Source of the DNA: Quercus robur
Taxonomy: Eukaryota; Streptophyta; Magnoliopsida; Fagales; Fagaceae
Reading direction: 5' to 3'
Assembly: GCF_932294415.1 (NCBI RefSeq)
Contig: NC_065544.1
Span: 22,667,351 to 22,731,350 of the forward strand
Length of the DNA stretch: 64,000 nucleotides
Both the position numbers and the translations under genes were made by a program. This document shows, one piece after another, positions 931 through 39,591 of this stretch; positions within the stretch are counted from its first letter, which is position 1, and each line of letters begins with the position of its first letter. The notes beneath the pieces are model-generated. The model ran no database searches, was not told the DNA's origin, and saw nothing but the letters and a program-made list of their open reading frames with translations.

Positions 931-2135
931 CCCTTTCATTGAGCATTTCCCGAGGTGCCAAACAGGGTGTCCCTAGGCCTTCACGCCAAGAACCCGCGGA
1001 TCAAGATACATTTCTGCAAACTCTGGCCACGCAGTACTTCTCTGACGCCCCAGGGATCGAGGCGCGCCTTCACGAGGCTTCTTGAGTCTCTAGACTGCAG
1101 TTGACGTTGGAAGTTGAGCCAAAGCCACTTTGTCTGTAGTGTTCCTTGGGACACCGCGTGAGTTGACTGCCATCATCTTGTCTTTTCAAATAAATAGGAG
1201 GGAGAGAGGGTTGCTTTATATATACACCCATCCTTTTATTTTTCTCTCGTATCACGCTCCCCATATCAGTAGCTCTCCTTTCTCGGCATAACATGTGGAA
1301 AGCGAGGGTTGGGAAGAAAGAACCTTCTCCGCCGCAGAAGCGCCGTGTCCTCATGAGGCTTATAACAGTAAGGTATGGGCACAGGAAGCACAAGTTCAGA
1401 AGAGTACTCCATCTCCACCGAGGGGGAACGGCGTCTCTCCCTCTTTTAGTCAAAATCCGAAGCAGGCTCTGTTCATGCCAGCACTTTGGTATGTCAGAAG
1501 AAAGATTCTCCTCCATCAGCGCCTCTGCTTAGCAGCAGGCGAATATTTAGAGAAAGCCCCTCAGTTTCCCACTCCCTGCATCTTTCCTTCAACGGTGCCA
1601 GGCTCAAGTTGGGTTTCTTTGGCTGCCTGAGTTATGGGCATGTAGGAGCGCGGGGGAAGAATAAGGTCTCGGAGCTGTAGCCAACCTTTCCTCCGACATA
1701 CCTCCTCGGCTTTCTCCAGCTTTCTTGTATTTTTCTTTTTCTTGCTTCTGTAGTAAGCTTTGACGTAGGCTGATTCCAGCTTTTCATTGTACTCTGTACT
1801 ATTTCTTCGTTGTAATAAAAATGGAAGTTGACTTACATGTTTTAAGCGTTGATCTATTGGGCAATACCACTTTGTGAACGAATGTGCTCTATGTATGCGT
1901 TGTTTTGAAAATATTTGTAACAAAGCTATTTTGAAGTATAATCTAACCAACTCTCAACTACCAGTACTATCAGGTATTACATCGATAATTTGTAATAAAT
2001 CGAACTTAGGAAACTGACCGAGATATCAGTTGTGTATTCTGTGATGAGCGCATGAATATCGTCCAAGGCTGATAATTTCTAAGCAATCCATCTGAGCAAT
2101 TGACTGGGACATAGGGGACTCCGATGACGCTTTCT
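931..2135 (-). other. non-coding spacer between the two tandem arrays, with TATA-like site
   Basis: No convincing coding region is present. Minus-strand open frames at 1070-1516 and 1561-1950 have no family signature that I recognise. A TATATATAAAG motif reads on the minus strand at about 1215-1225. It is followed downstream by a pyrimidine-rich tract, the arrangement expected of a promoter. It may be an internal promoter or part of a second, nested LTR. Confidence 0.35.
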
Positions 2136-4730
2136 TGTATTCGGTTTCCCCATAGGCTTCGGTCCGAGGACCATGCAAGGCCTTGGTTCTGTCCATTACT
2201 TATAAGATGTCCTCTTTGTACTTGGTTTCCCCACAGGCTTGGGTCCGAGGACCATGCAAGGCCTTGGTTCTGTCCATTACTTATAAGAGTTCTTCGTTGT
2301 ACTTGGTTTCCCCAGAGGCTTGGGTCCGAGGACCATGCAAGGCCTTGGTTCTGTCCATTACTTATAAGATGTCCTCTTTGTACTTGGTTTCCCCACAGGC
2401 TTGGGTCCGAGGACCATGCAAGGCCTTGGTTCTGTCCATTACTTATAAGATGTCTTCGTTGTACTTGGTTTCCCCAGAGGCTTGGGTCCGAGGACCATGC
2501 AAGGCCTTGGTTCTGTCCATTACTTATAAGATGTCCTCTTTGTACTTGGTTTCCCCACAGGCTTGGGTCCGAGGACCATGCAAGGCCTTGGTTCTGTCCA
2601 TTACTTATAAGAGTTCTTCGTTGTACTTGGTTTCCCCAGAGGCTTGGGTCCGAGGACCATGCAAGGCCTTGGTTCTGTCCATTACTTATAAGATGTCCTC
2701 TTTGTACTTGGTTTCCCCACAGGCTTGGGTCCGAGGACCATGCAAGGCCTTGGTTCTGTCCATTACTTATAAGAGTTCTTCTTTGTACTTGGTTTCCCCA
2801 GAGGCTTGGGTCCGAGGACCATGCAAGGCCTTGGTTCTGTCCATTACTTATAAGATGTCCTCTTTGTACTTGGTTTCCCCACAGGCTTGGGTCCGAGGAC
2901 CATGCAAGGCCTTGGTTCTGTCCATTACTTATAAGAGTTCTTCGTTGTACTTGGTTTCCCCAGAGGCTTGGGTCCGAGGACCATGCAAGGCCTTGGTTCT
3001 GTCCATTACTTTTAAGATGTCCTCTTTGTACTTGGTTTCCCCACAGGCTTGGGTCCGAGGACCATGCAAGGCCTTGGTTCTGTCCATTACTTATAAGAGT
3101 TCTTCGTTGTACTTGGTTTCCCCACAGGCTTGGGTCCGAGGACCATGCAAGGCCTTGGTTCTGTCCATTACTTTTAAGATGTCCTCTTTGTACTTGGTTT
3201 CCCCACAGGCTTGGGTCCGAGGACCATGCAAGGCCTTGGTTCTGTCCATTACTTATAAGAGTTCTTCGTTGTACTTGGTTTCCCCACAGGCTTGGGTCCG
3301 AGGACCATGCAAGGCCTTGGTTCTATCCATTACTTTTAAGATGTCCTCTTTGTACTTGGTTTCCCCACAGGCTTGGGTCCGAGGACCATGCAAGGCCTTG
3401 GTTCTGTCCATTACTTATAAGAGTTCTTCGTTGTACTTGGTTTCCCCACAGGCTTGGGTCCGAGGACCATGCAAGGCCTTGGTTCTGTCCATTACTTTTA
3501 AGATGTCCTCTTTGTACTTGGTTTCCCCACAGGCTTGGGTCCGAGGACCATGCAAGGCCTTGGTTCTGTCCATTACTTATAAGATGTCGTCGTTGTACTT
3601 GGTTTCCCCACAGGCTTGGGTCCGAGGACCATGCAAGGCCTTGGTTCTGTCCATTACTTATAAGAGTTCTTCGTTGTACTTGGTTTCCCCAGAGGCTTGG
3701 GTCCGAGGACCATGCAAGGCCTTGGTTCTGTCCATTACTTATAAGATGTCCTCTTTGTACTTGGTTTCCCCACAGGCTTGGGTCCGAGGACCATGCAAGG
3801 CCTTGGTTCTGTCCATTACTTATAAGAGTTCTTCGCTGTACTTGGTTTCCCCACAGGCTTGGGTCCGAGGACCATGCAAGGCCTTGGTTCTGTCCATTAC
3901 TTTTAAGATGTCCTCTTTGTACTTGGTTTCCCCACAGGCTTGGGTCCGAGGACCATGCAAGGCCTTGGTTCTGTCCATTACTTATAAGAGTTCTTCGTTG
4001 TACTTGGTTTCCCCACAGGCTTGGGTCCGAGGACCATGCAAGGCCTTGGTTCTGTCCATTACTTTTAAGATGTCCTCTTTGTACTTGGTTTCCCCAGAGG
4101 CTTGGGTCCGAGGACCATGCAAGGCCTTGGTTCTGTCCATTACTTATAAGAGTTCTTCGTTGTACTTGGTTTCCCCACAGGCTTGGGTCCGAGGACCATG
4201 CAAGGCCTTGGTTCTGTCCATTACTTTTAAGATGTCCTCTTTGTACTTGGTTTCCCCACAGGCTTGGGTCCGAGGACCATGCAAGGCCTTGGTTCTGTCC
4301 ATTACTTATAAGATGTCCTCTTTGTACTTGGTTTCCCCACAGGCTTGGGTCCGAGGACCATGCAAGGCCTTGGTTCTGTCCATTACTTATAAGAGTTCTT
4401 CGTTGTACTTGGTTTCCCCAGAGGCTTGGGTCCGAGGACCATGCAAGGCCTTGGTTCTGTCCATTACTTATAAGATGTCCTCTTTGTACTTGGTTTCCCC
4501 ACAGGCTTGGGTCCGAGGACCATGCAAGGCCTTGGTTCTGTCCATTACTTATAAGAGTTCTTCGCTGTACTTGGTTTCCCCACAGGCTTGGGTCCGAGGA
4601 CCATGCAAGGCCTTGGTTCTGTCCATTACTTTTAAGATGTCCTCTTTGTACTTGGTTTCCCCACAGGCTTGGGTCCGAGGACCATGCAAGGCCTTGGTTC
4701 TGTCCATTACTTATAAGAGTTCTTCGTTGT
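2136..4730 (-). repeat. 81-bp tandem repeat array, about 32 copies, with 162-bp higher-order pattern
   Basis: Every unit contains GGTCCGAGGACCATGCAAGG, then a CTTGGTTCTGTCC segment, a TTACTTATAAGA segment and a TACTTGGTTTCCCC segment. Two unit types alternate over much of the array: one has GATGTCCTCTTTG after the TATAAG and the other GAGTTCTTCGTTG, giving a 162-bp higher-order repeat. Smaller variants (CACAGG or AGAGG before the core, TTATAAG or TTTTAAG) also come in blocks, indicating repeated unequal exchange. 81 is divisible by three and the unit has no stop in two plus-strand frames, so 869- and 856-codon open frames run through the array; they carry no known domain. Confidence 0.95.
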
Positions 4731-11766: not shown

Positions 11767-13129
11767 GAGCATCAGCAGTGGAGCTTCTAAATGCCAAATG
11801 TTAGGAACATTTGGCATTTAAGCCCCAAAACTACTCAACAATGGAAAGGCTATATGCCATATGCCAATTCCAAATTTGGGATTTAGCTACAGTACCATCT
11901 CAAATATAAGATGGTACTGTAGCTGAATGTTATAAAAAAAAACAATTTTTTAATACTCTCATTTCTCTCTCCTCTCTCATTTAACCCGGGAATTTCTCTC
12001 TCCTCTTTCGTTATTTCTCTTTCTTTTCTCTCTCTTCCTCCTCTCATTCTGCTCTCTACTCCATCTCAGATCAGTTTGTTTCCATATAAAAAAAAAAAAA
12101 AATCTCAGATCAGTTTGTTTCCATATAAAAAAAAAAAATCTCAGATCAGTTTGTCTCAGATCAGTCTGCTATAAATTCCGATGGGTTTGTTATGGATTCC
12201 TTCCTCACTCTTTCTCTCATCTCACATCTCTCTTTCTCGTTCAAGGCTTGCACTATAGCTGGGTTTGGTTCGTGGTCACGGCATGGAGATCGGTGGATCG
12301 GTGTATCGGTGAATCATGGGTCAGGTGGTGGCGTGGGTTTGGATCGGTGTATCGGTGAATCATGCATGGGTCAGGTGGTGGCGTGGGTTTGGATCGGTGT
12401 GAGGGCTGGGTTTGGATCGGCGTGAGGGCTGAGTTTGGATCGGTGTGAGGGCTGGGTTTGCTGGTGATTTGTTTTGAATGGGTTTGCTAGTGGTGGCTCC
12501 GATGGGTTTGAATCGGAGCTCTAATGGCTCCGATATTGATTTTTTTTTTTTAATGGGTTGATCGTTGGGTTTGATGGTTTTTTTTTTTTAATGTAGTTTT
12601 GGTTTTGGTTTGATGGTGGTGGCGATTTGTTTTGAATGGGTTTGCTAGTGGTGGCTCCGATGGGTTTGAATCGGAGCTCTAATGGCTCCGATATTGATTT
12701 TTTTTTTTTTAATGGGTTGATCGTTGGGCTTGATGGTTTTTTTTTTTAATGTAGTTTTGGTTTTGGTTTGATGGTGGTGGCGCTGCTTTGGGGTGGTGGC
12801 GCTGTTTGATGGTGGTTTAATTTGGTTTTGGTTTGACGGTGGTTGAACGGTGGTGGTGTTAAGCCCATGAGAGACCTTGCCGGTTGTTTTTTTTTTTTTT
12901 TCTTATCCGTTCTTGTGCCAGAGGTTGAGGGACAGAGATGAAAAGGAAAAGAGAGAGAGAGAGAGAGAAATAGTAAAAAAATAATAAAAAAGAATATTTA
13001 AATAAACTGAGAAAAGAAATAGAGTTTTGGGATGTTGGGTGTATTGAAAAATTGTATGGTATAATTGATAAAGTAGCTTTTTGGGATGATAAAATAGGAT
13101 AGGATGGCATTTCCAACTGTGGATGCTCT
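11767..13129. mobile_element. 1.36-kb non-autonomous TIR element
   Basis: The left end reads GAGCATCAGCAGTGGAGC and the reverse complement of the right end reads AGAGCATCCACAGTTGG, an imperfect terminal inverted repeat of a kind common in plant DNA transposons. Inside are a perfect 16-bp inverted repeat (11885-11900 and 11909-11924, AGCTACAGTACCATCT), a second small hairpin near 11793-11820, G-rich imperfect repeats at 12270-12460, and a 158-bp tandem duplication (12466-12623 and 12624-12781). No transposase is recognisable; open frames at 12192-12425 (+) and 12859-13116 (-) look accidental. The superfamily is uncertain because the flanks are 215-bp repeats rather than a short target duplication. 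Confidence 0.65.
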
Positions 13130-13344
13130 AACTTTGTACCCCCTAACCCTTTAGCTTATGTCATCACTTATCAACTCTATCTTGGGCCCCACACTCCTCC
13201 TACTCTTGGCCCCTCCAATTATGCACCTTCTTCCACGATATTCAAATTCAATACTTAAATCTTATTACCCTAATTTAAAATAATAATAAAAAAACATAAA
13301 CCCTATCTCCTATAAAATAAATAAAATACATTTAACACATCTAA
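13130..13344. repeat. 215-bp direct repeat, right copy
   Basis: This appears identical to 11552-11766. It starts directly at the right end of the TIR element, and sequence beyond 13344 (TATATGAGC) differs from that beyond 11766. Confidence 0.9.
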
Positions 13345-15526: not shown

Positions 15527-16444
15527 ATGGGTTCTTATTACCACTTTGCCATTCTCTTTCTTTTATGCTGTTCCATTACCGTAGCTCCCACTGGTGCTAG
15601 AAAGCTCACGGCTCTCGTTGAACAACAGCCGTTGATTCTCAAGTATCACAACGGTGCTCTTCTGAAGGGCAACATCACCGTTAATTTGATCTGGTACGGC
15701 CAGTTCACTCCAATCCAGCGGTCCATAATCGTCGATTTCATCCAATCCCTCAACTCTCCTCGGGCCTCACTTCCCTCAGTGTCCACGTGGTGGAAAACCA
15801 CTGACAAGTACAAGGGGGGTTCTTCTGCGCTCGTCGTAGGGAAGCAAATCCTCCACGAAGCTTATACCTTGGGCAAGTCACTCAAAACAAGGCACTTGTT
15901 GGCTTTGTCTAACAAAGTTAACGGACTGAACTCGATTAACGTTGTTTTGACGGCTAAGGATGTCGCCGTCGATGGGTTTTGTATGAGCAGGTGTGGGACC
16001 CACGGGTCGACTCGGGTGAGTCAGGGGAAGAGGGTGACTCGTTCTGCTTACGTTTGGGTTGGTAACTCGGAGACTCAGTGTCCGGGTCAATGCGCTTGGC
16101 CCTTTCACCAGCCCATTTACGGCCCACAAACCCCGCCGTTAGTTTCGCCTAACGGAGACGTCGGAGTCGACGGAATGATCATCAACTTGGCTACCGTTTT
16201 GGCTGGCACCGTCACGAATCCGTTTAATAACGGATATTTCCAGGGCCCGGCAACGGCGCCGTTAGAGGCTGTTTCGGCTTGCACAGGGATATTCGGGTCG
16301 GGTGCGTACCCGGGTGATCCGGGTCGGGTGTTGGTGGAAAAGACAACCGGGGCGAGTTACAATGCGAACGGAGTGAATGGGAGGAAGTACTTGCTGCCAG
16401 CTATGTGGGACCCGAAAACCTCGGCGTGTAAGACGCTCGTGTAA
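15527..16444 (+). CDS. EXORDIUM/PHI-1-like secreted protein, single exon, 305 aa
   Basis: The protein belongs to the plant EXORDIUM / phosphate-induced-1 family (Pfam PF04674), apoplastic proteins linked to cell expansion and brassinosteroid- or carbon-dependent growth. An N-terminal signal peptide (about residues 1-25, hydrophobic AILFLLCC core) is followed by the family domain, with LKYHNGALL at 38-46, VNLIWYGQF at 52-60, STWWKTT at 86-92, FCMSRCGTHG at 151-160, the QCPGQCAWPF segment at 184-193, a DGMIINLATVLAG stretch from 215, and a YLLPAMWDP segment near the C-terminus. Six cysteines of the mature protein (152, 156, 185, 189, 252, 301) suit disulfides, and NIT at 49-51 is a possible glycosylation site. 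Length and lack of introns are normal for the family. The ATG gives the signal peptide directly; TATA box and G-box lie upstream. It looks intact. The biochemical activity of the family is not established. Confidence 0.93.
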   Translation: MGSYYHFAILFLLCCSITVAPTGARKLTALVEQQPLILKYHNGALLKGNITVNLIWYGQFTPIQRSIIVDFIQSLNSPRASLPSVSTWWKTTDKYKGGSSALVVGKQILHEAYTLGKSLKTRHLLALSNKVNGLNSINVVLTAKDVAVDGFCMSRCGTHGSTRVSQGKRVTRSAYVWVGNSETQCPGQCAWPFHQPIYGPQTPPLVSPNGDVGVDGMIINLATVLAGTVTNPFNNGYFQGPATAPLEAVSACTGIFGSGAYPGDPGRVLVEKTTGASYNANGVNGRKYLLPAMWDPKTSACKTLV

Positions 16445-18945: not shown

Positions 18946-20012
18946 ATCTTATCATCATTAATAATTAGTACACAAATTTTCAATTATTATATTTGACTCA
19001 CCAAAATTGGTTTAAAATGAACTCGGTAGAACTTCGTCCAAATTAACAATTTTGCATTTTGTGATCACACTTTCAAGTACAATTTACACTTTTAACATTG
19101 AAGTACAACTTACCTTCCTGATGTTTAGTTTTATCATAATTTAGTCTTAAAAATAATTTTTTCAATTTCTATATTTTGAACCCCATAATCTATATATATC
19201 TTAAAGAATTAAATATATTAATTGAAAGTTTGTGAACTAAATTGTGATAAGTTCAAATTAGCACTTTGGAAAAAGTTTTTTTCAAAACCAATTTGAAGAA
19301 ATCCATTATGTGATGATTCAGAAAACCATTTATGTATATTAATTTACATGACTTGTGAAGTTGATCATGTGATTCATTTAAATGATTGAATTCTTGCATA
19401 ATGGGTTAGAGGTAAACTTTGTCCCTATCAAAATGTCTTTCATATGCACTTGGGATAGCATATTCTCTTGACTTATTTAGTTTAAAAAAATTGCTTAAAT
19501 ATATAATGATATTTAGAAGGGAGGTTTATAAAAAGCTGCACCTTTATATATGAAATCAAACTAGGTAAATAACAAAAATTCACAAAAAATTTACAACATT
19601 TCGTATATGAAGTGGCTAAGTGCATTTCACAACATTAGCTTAAAGTACAACTCACAGCAATTTCATAACATAAGCCCACCATATTCTGCAATTTAAATTT
19701 AAATTTTTATTTTGTTATGATCCATAAGTGAAGTGGTAAATTGATTTAGAACTAATGTGAAATTGTTGTTGTGATGCTAGAATGATTTATTCAAATAAAC
19801 TTAGAATAAGAGAGGCCTGTTTAATATTAAATGTATAGTTATGCACCAATGTATATATACCATGATACTTACGTACTTGATTATCAAAAAAAAAAAAAAG
19901 ATATTTATGTACTTATGTACCCATTCATTCAGGACACTTTTATGTACTAGTTGCTTTCTTTTACTATTCTTATCTACTTGTAACTTGATTTTGTGTATCT
20001 CTTTCTATATTA
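18946..20012. other. AT-rich gene-free region
   Basis: No gene, RNA gene or clear repeat boundary is seen. An A-run lies at 19886-19900. Confidence 0.5.
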
Positions 20013-20440
20013 GAGTGTGAATCATTTGGAAGAAGTCCTCCTATTGTAGCTGAAGCCAATGCAATATTGTGGGCTGCCCAGCTAGCAATCCAAGAAAGAT
20101 GGTCACATATCATTATTGAAGGAGATGCAAAGCGATGTTTTGACCCCCTATCCTCTAAAGATGTTATTCCAGACTTGTCTATTGTTAATTTAGTTTGTAG
20201 TATTTTAAATCTTAAAGTAGATTTTGTTCGGTGTTGTTTTTGTTGGGTTAGAAGGGAGAGTAATTCTGCAGCTCATGTCACTGCAAAATTATCTCTTGCT
20301 TTTAGTGAGTCCTTTTGTTTTAATAAGGATAATCTCCCTAGAGTTGTCCACTCTGCCTGTTTGGGAGATTATCTCTCTGCATTTTCAGTTTAAATAAAAA
20401 TTGAATTTATCAAAAAAAAAAAAAAAAAAAAAAAAAAAAC
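20013..20440 (+). pseudogene. 5'-truncated LINE 3' end: RNase H-like domain plus poly(A) tail
   Basis: An open frame runs to a stop at 20391-20393 and encodes the RNase H-like domain (RVT_3 type) at the C-terminus of many plant LINE polyproteins: EANAILWAAQLA at the start, then IIIEGDAK and NSAAHVTAKLSLA. Stop and poly(A) (about 20411-20440) are separated by only some 17 bases. The missing upstream reverse transcriptase and the A-tail are the signature of 5'-truncated target-primed insertion. There is no genuine ATG: the frame is open upstream of the first possible start. It is closely related to 10000-10245. Confidence 0.75.
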
Positions 20441-21161: not shown

Positions 21162-21170
21162 CAAAATTAA
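21162..21170. repeat. 9-bp target-site duplication, left copy (CAAAATTAA)
   Basis: CAAAATTAA stands immediately left of the fold-back element and recurs at 22153-22161 immediately right of it. A 9-bp duplication is typical of Mutator-superfamily insertions. Confidence 0.8.
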
Positions 21171-22152
21171 GGAGAAAATAGCTAACTAGCACTAAAAGAC
21201 TAACTATTTAGTTAGTAGTTAAGGTTTCAAAACTAATTTGTTTTCTAGCATCTCGAGTATTTTAAACTCGATTTTGGCCAATAAATCGACCATCAGACGC
21301 TCGATTTCTATGCTCTGATTACTGCCGACGTGGCAAACTTTGCCACATGGGAACACAGAAATCGAGTCTCTAAGACTCGATTTCTAAGTGTTGTACATAC
21401 AACTTAGTGAGGAACCACAACGTCAGGCAAGAAACCACAACGTCAGGCAAGAAAGCAGAGAAAAAAAAAAAAAAAAAAAAAAAAAAAAACAAGAAATAGA
21501 AAGAGAGATCGGCGAGACCCAGGCGCCGCGCGCGGCCTGGGTCTCGCCTCTCGCGAGCCCAGGCAGCGCGAGCCCAGGCGCCGCGGTGCCTGGGTCTCGC
21601 CTGGGCTCGCGAGACCCAGGCCGCGCGCGGCGCCTGGGTCTCGCCTGGGTTCGCGAGACCCAGGCCGCAGATCGGCGAGCCCAGGCGAGACCCAGGCGCC
21701 GCGCTGCCTGGGCTCGCGAGACCCAGGCGCCGCGCTGCCTGGGCTCGCGAGAGGCGAGACCCAGGCCGCGCGCGGCGCCTGGGTCTCGCCGATCTGCGGC
21801 CTGGGTCTCGCCGATCTCTCTTTCTATTTCTTGTTTTTTTTTTTTTTTTTTTTTTTTTTTTTCTCTGCTTTCTTGCCTGACGTTGTGGTTTCTTGCCTGA
21901 CGTTGTGGTTCCTCACTAAGTTGTACGTACAACACTTAGAAATCGAGTCTTAGAGACTCGATTTCTGTGTTCCCATGTGGCAAAGTTTGCCACGTCGGCA
22001 GTAATCAGAGCATAGAAATCGAGCGTCTGATGGTCGATTTATTGGCCAAAATCGAGTTTAAAATACTCGAGATGCTAGAAAACAAATTAGTTTTGAAACC
22101 TTAACTACTAACTAAATAGTTAGTCTTTTAGTGCTAGTTAGCTATTTTCTCC
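21171..22152. mobile_element. 982-bp fold-back (Mutator-like) element with near-perfect long inverted arms
   Basis: The two ends (GGAGAAAATAGCTAACTAGC and its reverse complement) continue as inverted arms of about 365 bp that differ at only a few positions by eye, for example CATACAAC against GTACAAC near the middle of the arms. Both arms carry AATCGAGTCT-type motifs, a doubled CACAACGTCAGGCAAGAAA, a run of about 30 A (left) or T (right), and ATAGAAAGAGAGATCGGCGA. The core between them is very GC-rich and made of many direct and inverted copies of CGAGACCCAGGC. The mirror-image 170-codon open frames at 21388-21900 (+) and 21423-21935 (-) are products of the palindrome, not genes. No transposase is present. 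Transcription through it would give a long hairpin RNA. Confidence 0.88.
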
Positions 22153-22161
22153 CAAAATTAA
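22153..22161. repeat. 9-bp target-site duplication, right copy (CAAAATTAA)
   Basis: It matches 21162-21170 exactly and abuts the right end of the fold-back element. Confidence 0.8.
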
Positions 22162-27199: not shown

Positions 27200-27330
27200 A
27201 TTAATGCAAAAAGACTGATTGCACAATTTTTATTGAACATTGAAGCAATTTGTCATTCGAAGTAATTTGTTGATTGATTGAACATTATGCAATCAGTCTT
27301 TTTGCATTAATAAGACAAATTACTTCGAAT
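27200..27330. repeat. interleaved perfect inverted repeats (24 bp and 16 bp)
   Basis: A 24-bp segment at 27200-27223 (starting ATTAATGCAAAAAGACTG) is perfectly inverted at 27288-27311. A second pair, 27255-27270 and 27315-27330 (ATTCGAAGTAATTTGT and complement), is also perfect. The pairs are interleaved, not nested. Two further imperfect copies of the first motif lie near 27340 and 27427 in direct orientation. Confidence 0.8.
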
Positions 27331-28697
27331 GAAAATTATTAATGTAGAAAGACTGATTGCATAATGTTTAATATGGAATCATTCTATGTCATCGATTAAT
27401 ATGGAATCATTGATTCAATGAAAATTATTAATGCAGAAAGACTGATTGCACAATTTTTATGAACATTTTCTATCAAATGTAAAATAGCATATATAGCCAC
27501 CAAACACTCTACAGCTGACATGAAAAACAAACCAACGTAAGACAATATACTAAGGCTGAAATTCAGTGCCACCAAAATTAAGCCTTTAATAGAATGGAAT
27601 GGAAAGCTCTGTTTGTATAGAGGATAGAATGAAGGAAATGAAGGTCATATTACTTGAAATTGATTTACTTAATATTGGGTTTCTTCCTTTTAAGACTTGT
27701 ATGAGCTTTATTTTAGAATTGCTTGAATTAGTGTAGGATATCTATGGCTGTCAATACATGAGGTGAAATTAGCCTAATAGGCAGTTTGCTTAGCTACAGG
27801 CTATTTGATTAGCATGGGCTTTAGGAGATGATGACTAAAAGAAATTGACCATTAACCCAGATTTTTGGGTGCAAATTGGTTACATATGCATAGCAAAAAC
27901 AAAACTAACGAATGTGTGTTAGAAAGGTGACTGTCATAGTAAAACAAGCATATATGTGTGTTAAATGTATTCATTTTAAAATATAATGTTATAGTGGCAA
28001 TATAAGCCATGCATTACAAGGTTTGTCACATTTTACACTTAGAAAAAGTAATGCAGCAAAATGGTTGAAATCATGACGAATCCAATCAGATTTTAAATTT
28101 ATTAAGAGATTAGTAAGGACTCTACAGATGTTCACAAATTCAATGGCCCACCACTACAACCAATGGATCAAATAGATAATTAGATTGCTAGGATAATATT
28201 GATGCTACATCTTGTGCTACACTATCTATAGAGGTTTGCTATTTCAGGTTTTGCAGCTGAATCTAGGCATGTACATTCATTCGTTTTACAAGTTTTCGAA
28301 AATAACTATTAGTATGTGTAAGTACAAGTATGGTGGAAGATATGAAGCATTCATTTTTAACAATTTTTTTTCTTTCTATTTCTTCTATATTATTTTCGTG
28401 AATAAAAGGCAGTAGAACAAATTAAGTTTATATACGCTACACAAATCTGTTTGAGAAATTTTGGCTCTTTCTTTGTATTCAATATTTGAAGTTAGGGTAT
28501 GTAGATTAGTAGATACATAGTTTAGTGATCTAGGGAGGTGGATGAAAATTGTGACTAAGATACTTGGAAGATTCTTCCAAACATTGTGCTTTCAACCGGG
28601 GTGAGTAATTGGTTGCCATACATAGAGTTGAACTTGGAAATTGGTGCTGAAATATGTTCGAAGAACTTCATCTTTGAGACTTATTTAAGTTTTTATG
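27331..28697. other. gene-free region
   Basis: No coding region or repeat boundary is recognised. Open frames at 28212-28415 and 28586-28828 have no family features. Confidence 0.45.
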
Positions 28698-29418
28698 CTA
28701 TGAAGCACGGACGCGGCACCGGAGGTGCCGCACCCACGTCAGACGCGGCGGGACGCGGCGACGTGCAAGGGACGCCGTTGCCCACGCGTCCGACTGCGTC
28801 ATGCCACGTGGCGTTTCAGATTTTTTAGCCGACTCGCGCCGAATCGCGCCGACGCGGCGTTGAATCGCGCCGACGCGGCTCCGACTCGGGCCGATTCGCG
28901 CTGAATCGGGCCGACTCGGGCCGTATCGGCAGATATCGATCGAAACCGCCGAAACGGCCGATTCAGGCCGAAACGGCCGAAATTTAAAAAAAAAAAAAAA
29001 GCACAGAACGCACCGTCTCTCACTCTCACTCGTCTCTCACTCTCATTAGTTCTCTGCCTCTTTCTCATTCCGTCTCACTCGTCTCTCACTCTCTCTGTGT
29101 TCTGATCTCTGCCTCTGTCTCTGCTTGGCTGCTTGCTGTGACTCTGTTATTCAGCTCATTCTTTCTTTAGCTCTCTCTCACACATTCTTAACTCAGGTAT
29201 CAACACTATTGTCTATTGTCTATTGCTCTTAAATTTGGTATATGTTTGTATAATGTGAAAAAGTATACTTAGCAATATATTAAAAATATAAATAAAAATA
29301 TTTTTAATAATTTTTTAATTACCGAGTCCCGCCGCACCCGCACCCACCTTTTTCAAAAATTGCCGAGTCCCGCACCCGCACCCGCATCCGAGTCCTGAAA
29401 CGCACCCGTGCTACATAG
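28698..29418. mobile_element. TIR element with GC-rich core
   Basis: The left end CTATGAAGCACGGACGCG and the reverse complement of the right end CTATGTAGCACGGGTGCG form an imperfect terminal inverted repeat. From about 28706 to 28980 the sequence is a CpG-rich island of imperfect GACGCGGCG / ACTCGGGCCG / GCCGAAACGG repeats, quite unlike the surroundings. A CT-rich leader-like stretch and an AT-rich stretch follow, then CCGAGTCC and GCACCCGCACCC repeats at the right end. No transposase is seen and the superfamily is uncertain (Mutator-like is possible). Confidence 0.6.
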
Positions 29419-36904: not shown

Positions 36905-39591
36905 TGACTGAAGAAATCAATCAATATTCAATATTATTATATGGCATACTGTATACAGAGCAGAGTTTTTTTTTTTTTTTTTTTTTTTTTGGGAGGGGGG
37001 GGGGGGGATAGATCATAGATTACTATGAATTTTTTTATTTTTTATTTTATATATATATATATATATATATTTATAGAGTTACAACTAAGGTACTTATGGT
37101 AAATCACATTACTTGTTTACAATCCTACTAAAAGATTCCAATCGGTTTAAAATTGTTGAGTCGAAATTTTTTTTAAAACATAAACTAACTATTGACTCGG
37201 TAATTTTAAAAAGATTGAAGTCTTATAGTGAGATGGTGGACAAGTAATGTGGTCTACCATAAAGATCTTTTAATTTCTCTAACCTATGGTGTTCGCTTCT
37301 AACGATTATGCTCTTTATCATCTAATAAAAACAACAGTTGGTCATTGGTGTAGGCAAAGATTGAAGCCTAAATATTTTATTCAATAATTTGAGACTTTAC
37401 TGGTTGAGTTAATTGGAACTCGCGTATAATAAGCTTAAAAGTTGTGGGAAATGAAATGAAAATAATAATTTTATAATAATATTATTTCCTTCTCTTATTT
37501 ACCAGTATTAAATTTTTAATGGAGGTGTAATTATAATATCATTTTTTATCTTAAAGGATAGATATTTCTAGACTAGATTTTTTTTTTTTTGAAATAAATT
37601 GAGATAAAGTCATAGATTTTCAATCCAAATTAAAGTACGAATCAACCGCTCAATAGTTTTATTTTTTAATTAGTGACTAAATAAAATAAACGAGAGAAAT
37701 CGCATTCCTTTCGAGCAAAAGAAAGCGGCCCTTCCTAATTCTAAATTTGAAATTATTATTTCTTTATCTTTAGGTGAATTTAAAATTGTTCAAATTGTAT
37801 TATTTTCAATTATTAACCATGCGTTTCTTTGTTTGGAAGTTTGAGTTGAAGGAAATTGAATGAGTAGGAAGGAATACGTGTTCCTCACTATTGCTTCAAA
37901 ATCTCAAATTTTCATTGCCAAAAATTAGGAGGAATTAGAGAGAATGAAATGAAATTTAATAAAATTTTTACAAAAACTCTCAAAAAACCCATATATATAT
38001 TCAGAAATTTATTTTTAAATAAGGATTTAATAGTAATATTATTATAAAATGATTTCATTCATTTTCCTCTATATTACTCCCAAATAAGGTTACTTACATT
38101 ATGTTCATTTTCTTCTAAAAGAAATACATTATATTCATTTTCATTCATTTATTTTAAAATATTCAAATAAGATTACTTAATTTCATTTCATTCTTTTTCT
38201 GCTCTATTCTTTTTACTTACTTAAATACATTTCATTATGTTTCTTTGATAATTGATATTAACTTTTTTTTTTTTTTTTTTTTTATATTTATAAATTTCTA
38301 TGTTTACTTTATATTAATAGTTTTTTTTTTTAAAAAAAATTCAATCATCTTTGATTTTTACGTTTTCTTTCTTTCTTTTTTCTTTTTTCTTTTTAAAATT
38401 TTTTTTATAGGTTTTGTTTATATCAACTTCTTTATTTATTTATTTATTTTTATGTTTTCATTATATAGACCCACAGTTGGGAAACTAATTTCGTATAAAA
38501 GATAAAATTTTATCATGTAAGTCAAGTCTTTATGAGATAAAATGGTATGATATATATACAAGTGGCTTTGCTCGGTTTTACTTAAAAAATTTATATTTTA
38601 CTCCTACAAATTATTAATTAAAAAATAAGGACTTATATTGACCACAGAATCCTACTACAAATTTTTTTTTTCTTCGTATTGATTTCAAAATGTCTCCCCC
38701 AAAAATAAAGGATAAAAAAAAAAGAAAAAAAAAAAGGCCAATCGAGCTCACTACATCAAAAATCAAATAGAGCGAAATTTTACAAATAAAACAAAATGCC
38801 AAAACCTGGGCAGAGCATTAAACAGCCGAAAACATAAAACAAAGAAGAGGCCCAAGGCTCAATTTCAACTGTTCACCCACTTCACATGTTTACCTTCAGC
38901 GGTTCAACCCTTAATCACGTTTTTTTACATATTCTTTGTTGGTTTTTATTTATTTATTTACCTTTTCTTTGATAATAATGTAATGTATTACACATGCATA
39001 AATGAAATAATGTTTTTTTTTTTTTTTTCCTTATTAGCATGAACTATTAGAATTGTATTTGGAATTTTGAAAGTAAGGATCAAAGTTTAATAAATTTGAA
39101 TAAAATTGTTATTAGTTAACATAAAGTTATTTTATATGAATATAAAAAAGTGCGAGATCTTTTAGAAGTTTTTCTTTGTGATTTGCCTTATACAATATTT
39201 GGGTGCTTAGGAGCTTGCTTCAATTTTTGCAATAGTAGGGCATGATTGTTTCAAAAAAATTCATATTTATAAATTTCATAATCAATTAATTATTTTTTGA
39301 AATAAAGTATATTGTTTCTCTAAAATATATTTTGTCAGTTTAAATAGAAATTTTTCTAACATTAGTAAAACAAATCCAATCAATAGTCAAAAAGCACTTC
39401 TAGGACATTTTATTTTTATAAATATGAACTAAGATGATTGAGCTTTGAAGCATTCAACAATGTTGTGGGAAAGTCATATATTCCAATTGATTTCTTTCGA
39501 TATATTCAAGTTCTCCCCCCTTGGGAATAAAAGGCTCCTCTCTTTAAAATACTTAAATTCAAGATATAAGAAAAGTGTTAGAAAGGGCGGA
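36905..39591. other. AT-rich gene-free region with long homopolymers
   Basis: A run of about 25 T at 36966-36990 is followed by a G-rich run to about 37007, and (TA)n lies at 37051-37070. Poly-T-rich open frames at 38245-38505 (+) and 38614-38802 (-) are low-complexity and not credible genes. No transposon ends were recognised. Confidence 0.55.

Follow-up and report, generated by a model that had tools for sequence, protein, structure and literature searches.

A palindromic foldback Mutator-like element in the oak genome and its probable origin from lopsided relatives

The element and its surroundings

The window, that is, the whole stretch of 64,000 nucleotides of Quercus robur DNA that was analysed, contains a Phi_1 gene and, further downstream, five class-II DAHP synthase frames, an RRM frame, ABC transporter frames and a copia-type element (Table 1). 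Of 72 stop-to-stop frames with 90 or more codons, 66 were compared with Pfam, as were four shorter ones; this leaves aside five frames from the tandem repeats at 0.4-4.8 kb and a further one at 12859-13155. No DNA-transposon transposase was matched by any of the 66 long and four shorter frames. An 81-bp tandem repeat of about 32 copies, with long open frames on both strands, occupies positions 2135-4718, and 78-bp repeats that look related to it lie at 538-914. At 19989-20439 an RVT_3 (RNase-H-like) fragment precedes an A28 run and may represent a LINE 3' end. Inverted repeats are found at 27277-27372 (37 nt, 92%, loop of 22 nt) and, upstream of the DAHP synthase gene, at 37087-37269 (89 nt, 74%, spacer of 5 nt). 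A second GC- and CpG-rich patch (28706-29000) comprises degenerate GCCGACTCGC-like words, then a poly-A run and CT-rich sequence; its CpG observed/expected ratio is 1.85 over 290 bp from 28711, and no 9-bp inverted ends with a 5-10 bp duplication were found around it between 27.5 and 31.5 kb.

No inverted repeat of the window is longer than a near-perfect palindrome of 982 bp at 21171-22152 with the ends GGAGAAAATAGC; the runner-up outside it is 89 nt at 74%. A preliminary description had reported this palindrome, together with a run of about 30 A or T in each arm and a core crowded with repeated words, and all three readings hold, the runs being A29 on the left and T29 on the right and the word CGAGACCCAGGC occurring six times forward and five times reversed, with no occurrence outside the core. 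Its figure of about 365 bp for the almost identical arms is fair: an ungapped comparison of arm positions 1-354 gives a single difference, at position 227, and the match extends to 21570 on the left and 21731 on the right when a 22-bp extra copy on the right is allowed for, the arms then holding 822 of the 982 bases. A 27-nt word spanning this extra copy recurs centrally at 21653-21679, and the copy is perhaps a smaller step of the fold-back copying discussed below. The element is composed mostly of long inverted repeats, has internal sub-repeats and is able to fold back, as foldback elements do. Elsewhere in the window, 14-mers revealed no further copies, and BLAST gave only A/T-run matches among the 60 best matches listed. 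A protein-coding core was rejected, no Pfam family having been found in any of the six long frames that cross it.

Table 1. Features of the window, in positions counted from its first nucleotide
Feature	Position	Strand	Remarks
Phi_1 gene	15527-16444		
Left target-site duplication, CAAAATTAA	21162-21170	.	same as 22153-22161
Left arm, type A	21171-21570	+	400 bp; pairs with 21731-22152; type A by arm tree
Left half (A arm and core)	21171-21663	+	L018 1-448, 85.1% over 495 aligned columns
Tandem 20-bp unit, two copies	21413-21454	+	extra copy in both arms (alignment)
A29 run	21461-21489	+	
GC-rich core	21506-21818	.	78% GC, 51 CpG, zero TpA; direct and inverted copies of GCGAGACCCAGGC
Approximate fold-back point	21664-21674	.	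gap between the L018 alignments (query 1-493 and 505-982)
Right half	21675-22152	-	L018 439-1 inverted, 82.7% over 485 columns
Right arm	21731-22152	-	422 bp, with 22-bp extra copy; against left arm, one mismatch and 22-bp insertion
T29 run	21834-21862	-	
Right target-site duplication, CAAAATTAA	22153-22161	.	same as 21162-21170
Class-II DAHP synthase frames, five	32.7-36.9 kb		
RRM frame	47.4-47.7 kb		
ABC transporter frames	near 54-56 kb		
Copia-type element	about 58-61.6 kb		

A dispersed family with two types of arm

The search of the genome for further copies that the preliminary description had called for uncovered a large dispersed family. The element's own genome (785.7 Mb in 42 contigs) yielded 671 first-look candidates, and 40 were scored; 40 regions, fetched from the listed matches, came from the best-scoring candidates and form a non-random sample. 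Seven (L011, L030, L033, L034, L038, L045 and L046) showed no ends with a duplication and were excluded from later counts, so that the family comparison comprises 34 copies, that is, 33 relatives and the window copy.

The window copy is bordered flush on both sides by the 9-bp duplication CAAAATTAA, as had been described. Within the window, 9-mers match at the element's spacing at 3 of 63000 positions, the element itself being among these three, and at 28 other spacings at 1648 of 1763762, a higher rate to which tandem repeats presumably contribute at least in part; given these rates, this duplication alone is no proof of insertion. It is the relatives that settle the question. Flush duplications border 33 of the 40 fetched regions (25 exact ones of 9 bp, 4 exact ones of 10 bp and 4 of 9 bp with one mismatch, in a search that tolerated up to seven mismatches in 18 at the ends and one within the duplication), all 33 are distinct, and left and right flanks taken from different copies match in none of 1056 pairings, again with at most one mismatch.

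The exact 20-base end of the window copy occurs just at its own two ends, and the relatives carry GGAGAAAATAGG, GGGAAAAATAGG and similar ends. The outer arms have CpG observed/expected ratios of 0.62-1.38 across the 34 copies, among which the high arm CpG of the window copy is nothing special. An exact 12-base core word is present in 25 of the 34 copies, and the combination of Mutator-type ends with a palindromic GC core, previously regarded as unusual, is not so, since the GC core is common in the family and foldback Mutator-like elements (MULEs) have been published (available part of PMC4486113). Exact scans of viral and prokaryote contigs gave no matches, as expected for a plant element.

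Within a copy, the two arms diverge over their first 250 bp by 0.4-8.2% in 18 copies and by 14-35% in the other 16. The latter are lopsided, with an A arm and a B arm (A/B), and the former palindromic, with two A arms (A/A). In an IQ-TREE phylogeny of all 68 arms, built on 258 columns, the 16 B arms form one clade (100/100), whereas the other deep clade unites the A arms with the two arms of each palindrome; each lopsided copy therefore has one arm in each clade. The palindromes are split into a GGAG group of 11 copies, including the window copy, and a GGGAA group of 7, with lopsided copies between them. By unrooted change counts they need two changes on this tree, and the starred branches force two. 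A single palindrome clade is rejected at a cost of 58.1 log-likelihood units (p-AU 1.04e-43, a somewhat flattering value because the labels lopsided and palindromic, while based on arm distances, were fixed after a quick tree had been inspected). Over the 16 lopsided copies, A-arm and B-arm distances are correlated (r 0.478, with none of 9999 permutations as high), which argues that A/B pairs have largely been inherited together. Because the search query was itself A/A, B/B copies would escape this sample.

A probable route from lopsided to palindromic copies

The lopsided copy L018 is ordered as A arm, GC core up to position 448, middle and B arm. Aligned with it (Table 1), the window palindrome consists of the A arm plus GC core twice over, in opposite orientations, with neither middle nor B arm; the halves meet inside the core, and the exact fold-back point is uncertain because the core is repetitive. 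L018 is the best match for both halves of all 11 GGAG palindromes, none of which runs past position 448, where its core ends, and three words of the lopsided middle, present in 12, 7 and 10 of the 16 lopsided copies, occur in none of the 18 palindromes. The halves of the GGGAA group match less cleanly; the right halves of L016 and L017 align along entire lopsided copies at 72-74%, and the left half of L031 aligns over just 110 bp. The middle of L018 (element positions about 449-600, similar in L020 and L021) carries a repeated CT-rich unit with CTCTGATCTGAGC, possibly captured host sequence.

The core of L018 already holds words in both orientations (two and two), suggesting that the hairpins of such lopsided copies probably predate the palindrome. 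Since the palindrome is a doubled A arm plus core, and palindromes fall in two groups of the tree, the GC-rich hairpin core was probably the pivot of fold-back copying, a template switch inside the core hairpins being the simplest route that we infer. As a whole and with high confidence, the element is best explained as a non-autonomous foldback member of the Mutator superfamily, belonging to a dispersed family in which A/A copies were made from A/B copies by fold-back copying. The ancestral form would be A/B. During replication or post-excision repair, synthesis would copy the A arm, enter the hairpin-rich core, switch template there onto its own strand and copy back outward through the A arm, so that middle and B arm are replaced. 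The A/A product would possess two working A ends and could therefore be moved as a unit by a transposase supplied elsewhere. Conversion would have taken place at least twice, the arm sequences pointing to an A/B ancestor with two conversions to A/A, and one arm would later have been recopied onto the other in the lineage of the window copy. More tentatively, and at somewhat less than even odds, the GC core may act as a built-in fold-back switch that repeatedly turns a lopsided MULE into a perfect palindrome with two strong ends, in which case foldback transposons and long hairpin RNA loci would be generated recurrently from one parent family.

The opposite direction is improbable. In that scheme the A/A palindrome would be ancestral and the lopsided copies would have gained a B arm later through recombination, and neither the tree by itself nor its unrooted change counts can tell gain of the B arm from loss. 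However, the B arms form that single clade (100/100), their relationships track those of their A partners, and the lopsided copies carry middle words missing from the 18 palindromes.

To our knowledge, the origin of foldback palindromes has usually been guessed from finished elements. Among the papers listed by literature searches, most of them judged by title, none beyond that on Galileo dealt with an asymmetric-to-palindromic origin or a GC-rich foldback MULE. Here, a single genome contains both the probable parent, which runs from an A arm through the GC core and a middle to a B arm, and the palindromic product, in which A arm and core are followed by core and A arm; the tree has two separate conversions, and the fold-back route can thereby be tested copy by copy.

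The near-identity of the arms had been attributed either to youth or to homogenisation. Homogenisation is borne out by private variants, while youth is at most plausible. At alignment columns 12, 29 and 254, C12, G29 and T254 are present in both arms of the window copy, as is the extra 20-bp unit, and are found in none of the 10 other GGAG palindromes (C12, an end base, also occurs in the lopsided L026 and L029), which indicates that, in the lineage of the window copy, one arm was overwritten by a copy of the other. Such homogenisation looks episodic across the family. A copy's own two arms are the nearest pair in just 2 of the 34 copies, the arms of L008, L012 and L014 retain separate lineages, and within the first 250 columns the shared variants number 21, of which 12 always occur in both arms, 4 always in a single arm and 5 are mixed. 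Two arguments on age were also considered. A post-insertion CpG mutation as the source of the single arm mismatch was rejected, because at what is presumed to be the same site (column 242) a G stands in one arm of four copies (the window copy, L007, L008 and L012), so that the mismatch is a shared or recurrent variant. The argument from equal A29 and T29 runs is weakened, run lengths being equal in 3 of the 18 palindromes.

Superfamily, hairpin RNA and related elements

Plant MULEs are given a working definition of long terminal inverted repeats (TIRs) and flush duplications of 9-11 bp, with a rule of TIRs of at least 100 bp, at least 80% similarity and intact ends (available part of PMC3310237); elsewhere the duplication range is 8-11 bp (PMC6446971). 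The window copy has arms of 400 and 422 bp that differ by one mismatch and a 22-bp insertion, which agrees with the TIR rule, and its lopsided relatives, with arms 14-35% different, satisfy the rule only partly. Duplications are of 9 bp here and of 9 or 10 bp in 33 of the 40 relatives, and the dispersed copies have differing ones. Membership of the MULEs, judged from structure and copies, is thereby supported, as is the Mutator-type insertion first proposed, and the element is a non-autonomous foldback MULE, a known kind. It is very unlikely that the family is mobilised by a transposase of another superfamily, its likeness to Mutator then being confined to duplication and TIR length. No window frame given to Pfam matched a DNA-transposon transposase, and foldback-like TIRs are also present in Galileo, of the P superfamily (available part of PMC4168063), but the duplications of 9-10 bp fall within the MULE range (PMC6446971) and those of Galileo are of 7-8 bp.

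One strand of the element, folded as RNA, reaches -917.7 kcal/mol against -307.5 (sd 10.8) for 20 shuffles, 56 sd lower, so a transcript is predicted to form a long hairpin. A near-perfect stem of about 400 bp is expected to yield many small interfering RNAs (siRNAs); the mark of a microRNA gene is a single dominant small-RNA duplex cut from a short imperfect stem. Because of this stem, and because an Rfam search gave no family at gathering score, a proto-microRNA gene appears the less likely reading. Between 21000 and 22300 there are 21 sub-threshold Rfam matches, of which 19 are to miRNA families (best 45.6 bits against a cut-off of 79, E down to 4.9e-6), and in our view they mirror the shape of the hairpin. 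No TATA box was found in the element or within 300 bp of either flank on the inward-reading strand. A role as siRNA source is plausible by analogy, the available text of PMC12595863 giving siRNA output as an expectation for this class of element and 24-nt siRNAs from about 486 of 634 gene-near inverted repeats of Arabidopsis; the same source attributes a significant share of dicot MITE-derived miRNAs to Mutator MITEs, which counts against demoting the microRNA reading. In the fold-back account, RNA from the element would form a long duplex, a possible substrate for dicing into siRNAs that target the family, and every conversion would yield a long near-perfect hairpin able to start such silencing.

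A functional host small-RNA locus under selection, to which the stable predicted hairpin and the Arabidopsis counts would lend themselves, is very unlikely, a shade more so than a foreign transposase, since the element is one among many mobile copies, the nearest recognised exons are about 4.7 kb upstream and 10.5 kb downstream, and a gathering match in Rfam is absent. The chance of an assembly or library artefact is negligible: inverted chimeras are a known one, but many separate copies have duplications of their own.

Foldback MULEs are known from MuTAnT and from FARE1 (PMC4486113, in its available part, where FARE1 is cited). MuTAnT of Medicago truncatula resembles the present element by its description there, with near-identical long modular TIRs, a predicted hairpin and a place in the Mutator superfamily; unlike it, the first copy described is of 292 bp with 144-bp TIRs, its targets are TA microsatellites, and a history from A/B to A/A does not figure in that description. 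FARE1 of Arabidopsis, as cited there, has long palindromic repeats at both ends and is now placed among the MULEs. Tm1 Mutator/Foldback of root-knot nematodes (available part of PMC3169594) likewise has composite foldback-like TIRs and 9-bp duplications, but it lives in an animal host, its Phantom-type transposase is known and it carries a histone-hairpin motif. Galileo, of Drosophila, is an animal element of the P superfamily with 7-8 bp duplications, and is comparable in that its TIRs grow by absorbing internal sequence and changes pass between them, for which repair slippage and template switching have been proposed (available part of PMC4168063). Galileo, on that account, grows its TIRs, whereas the oak family would swap one type of end for the other at a GC-rich core.
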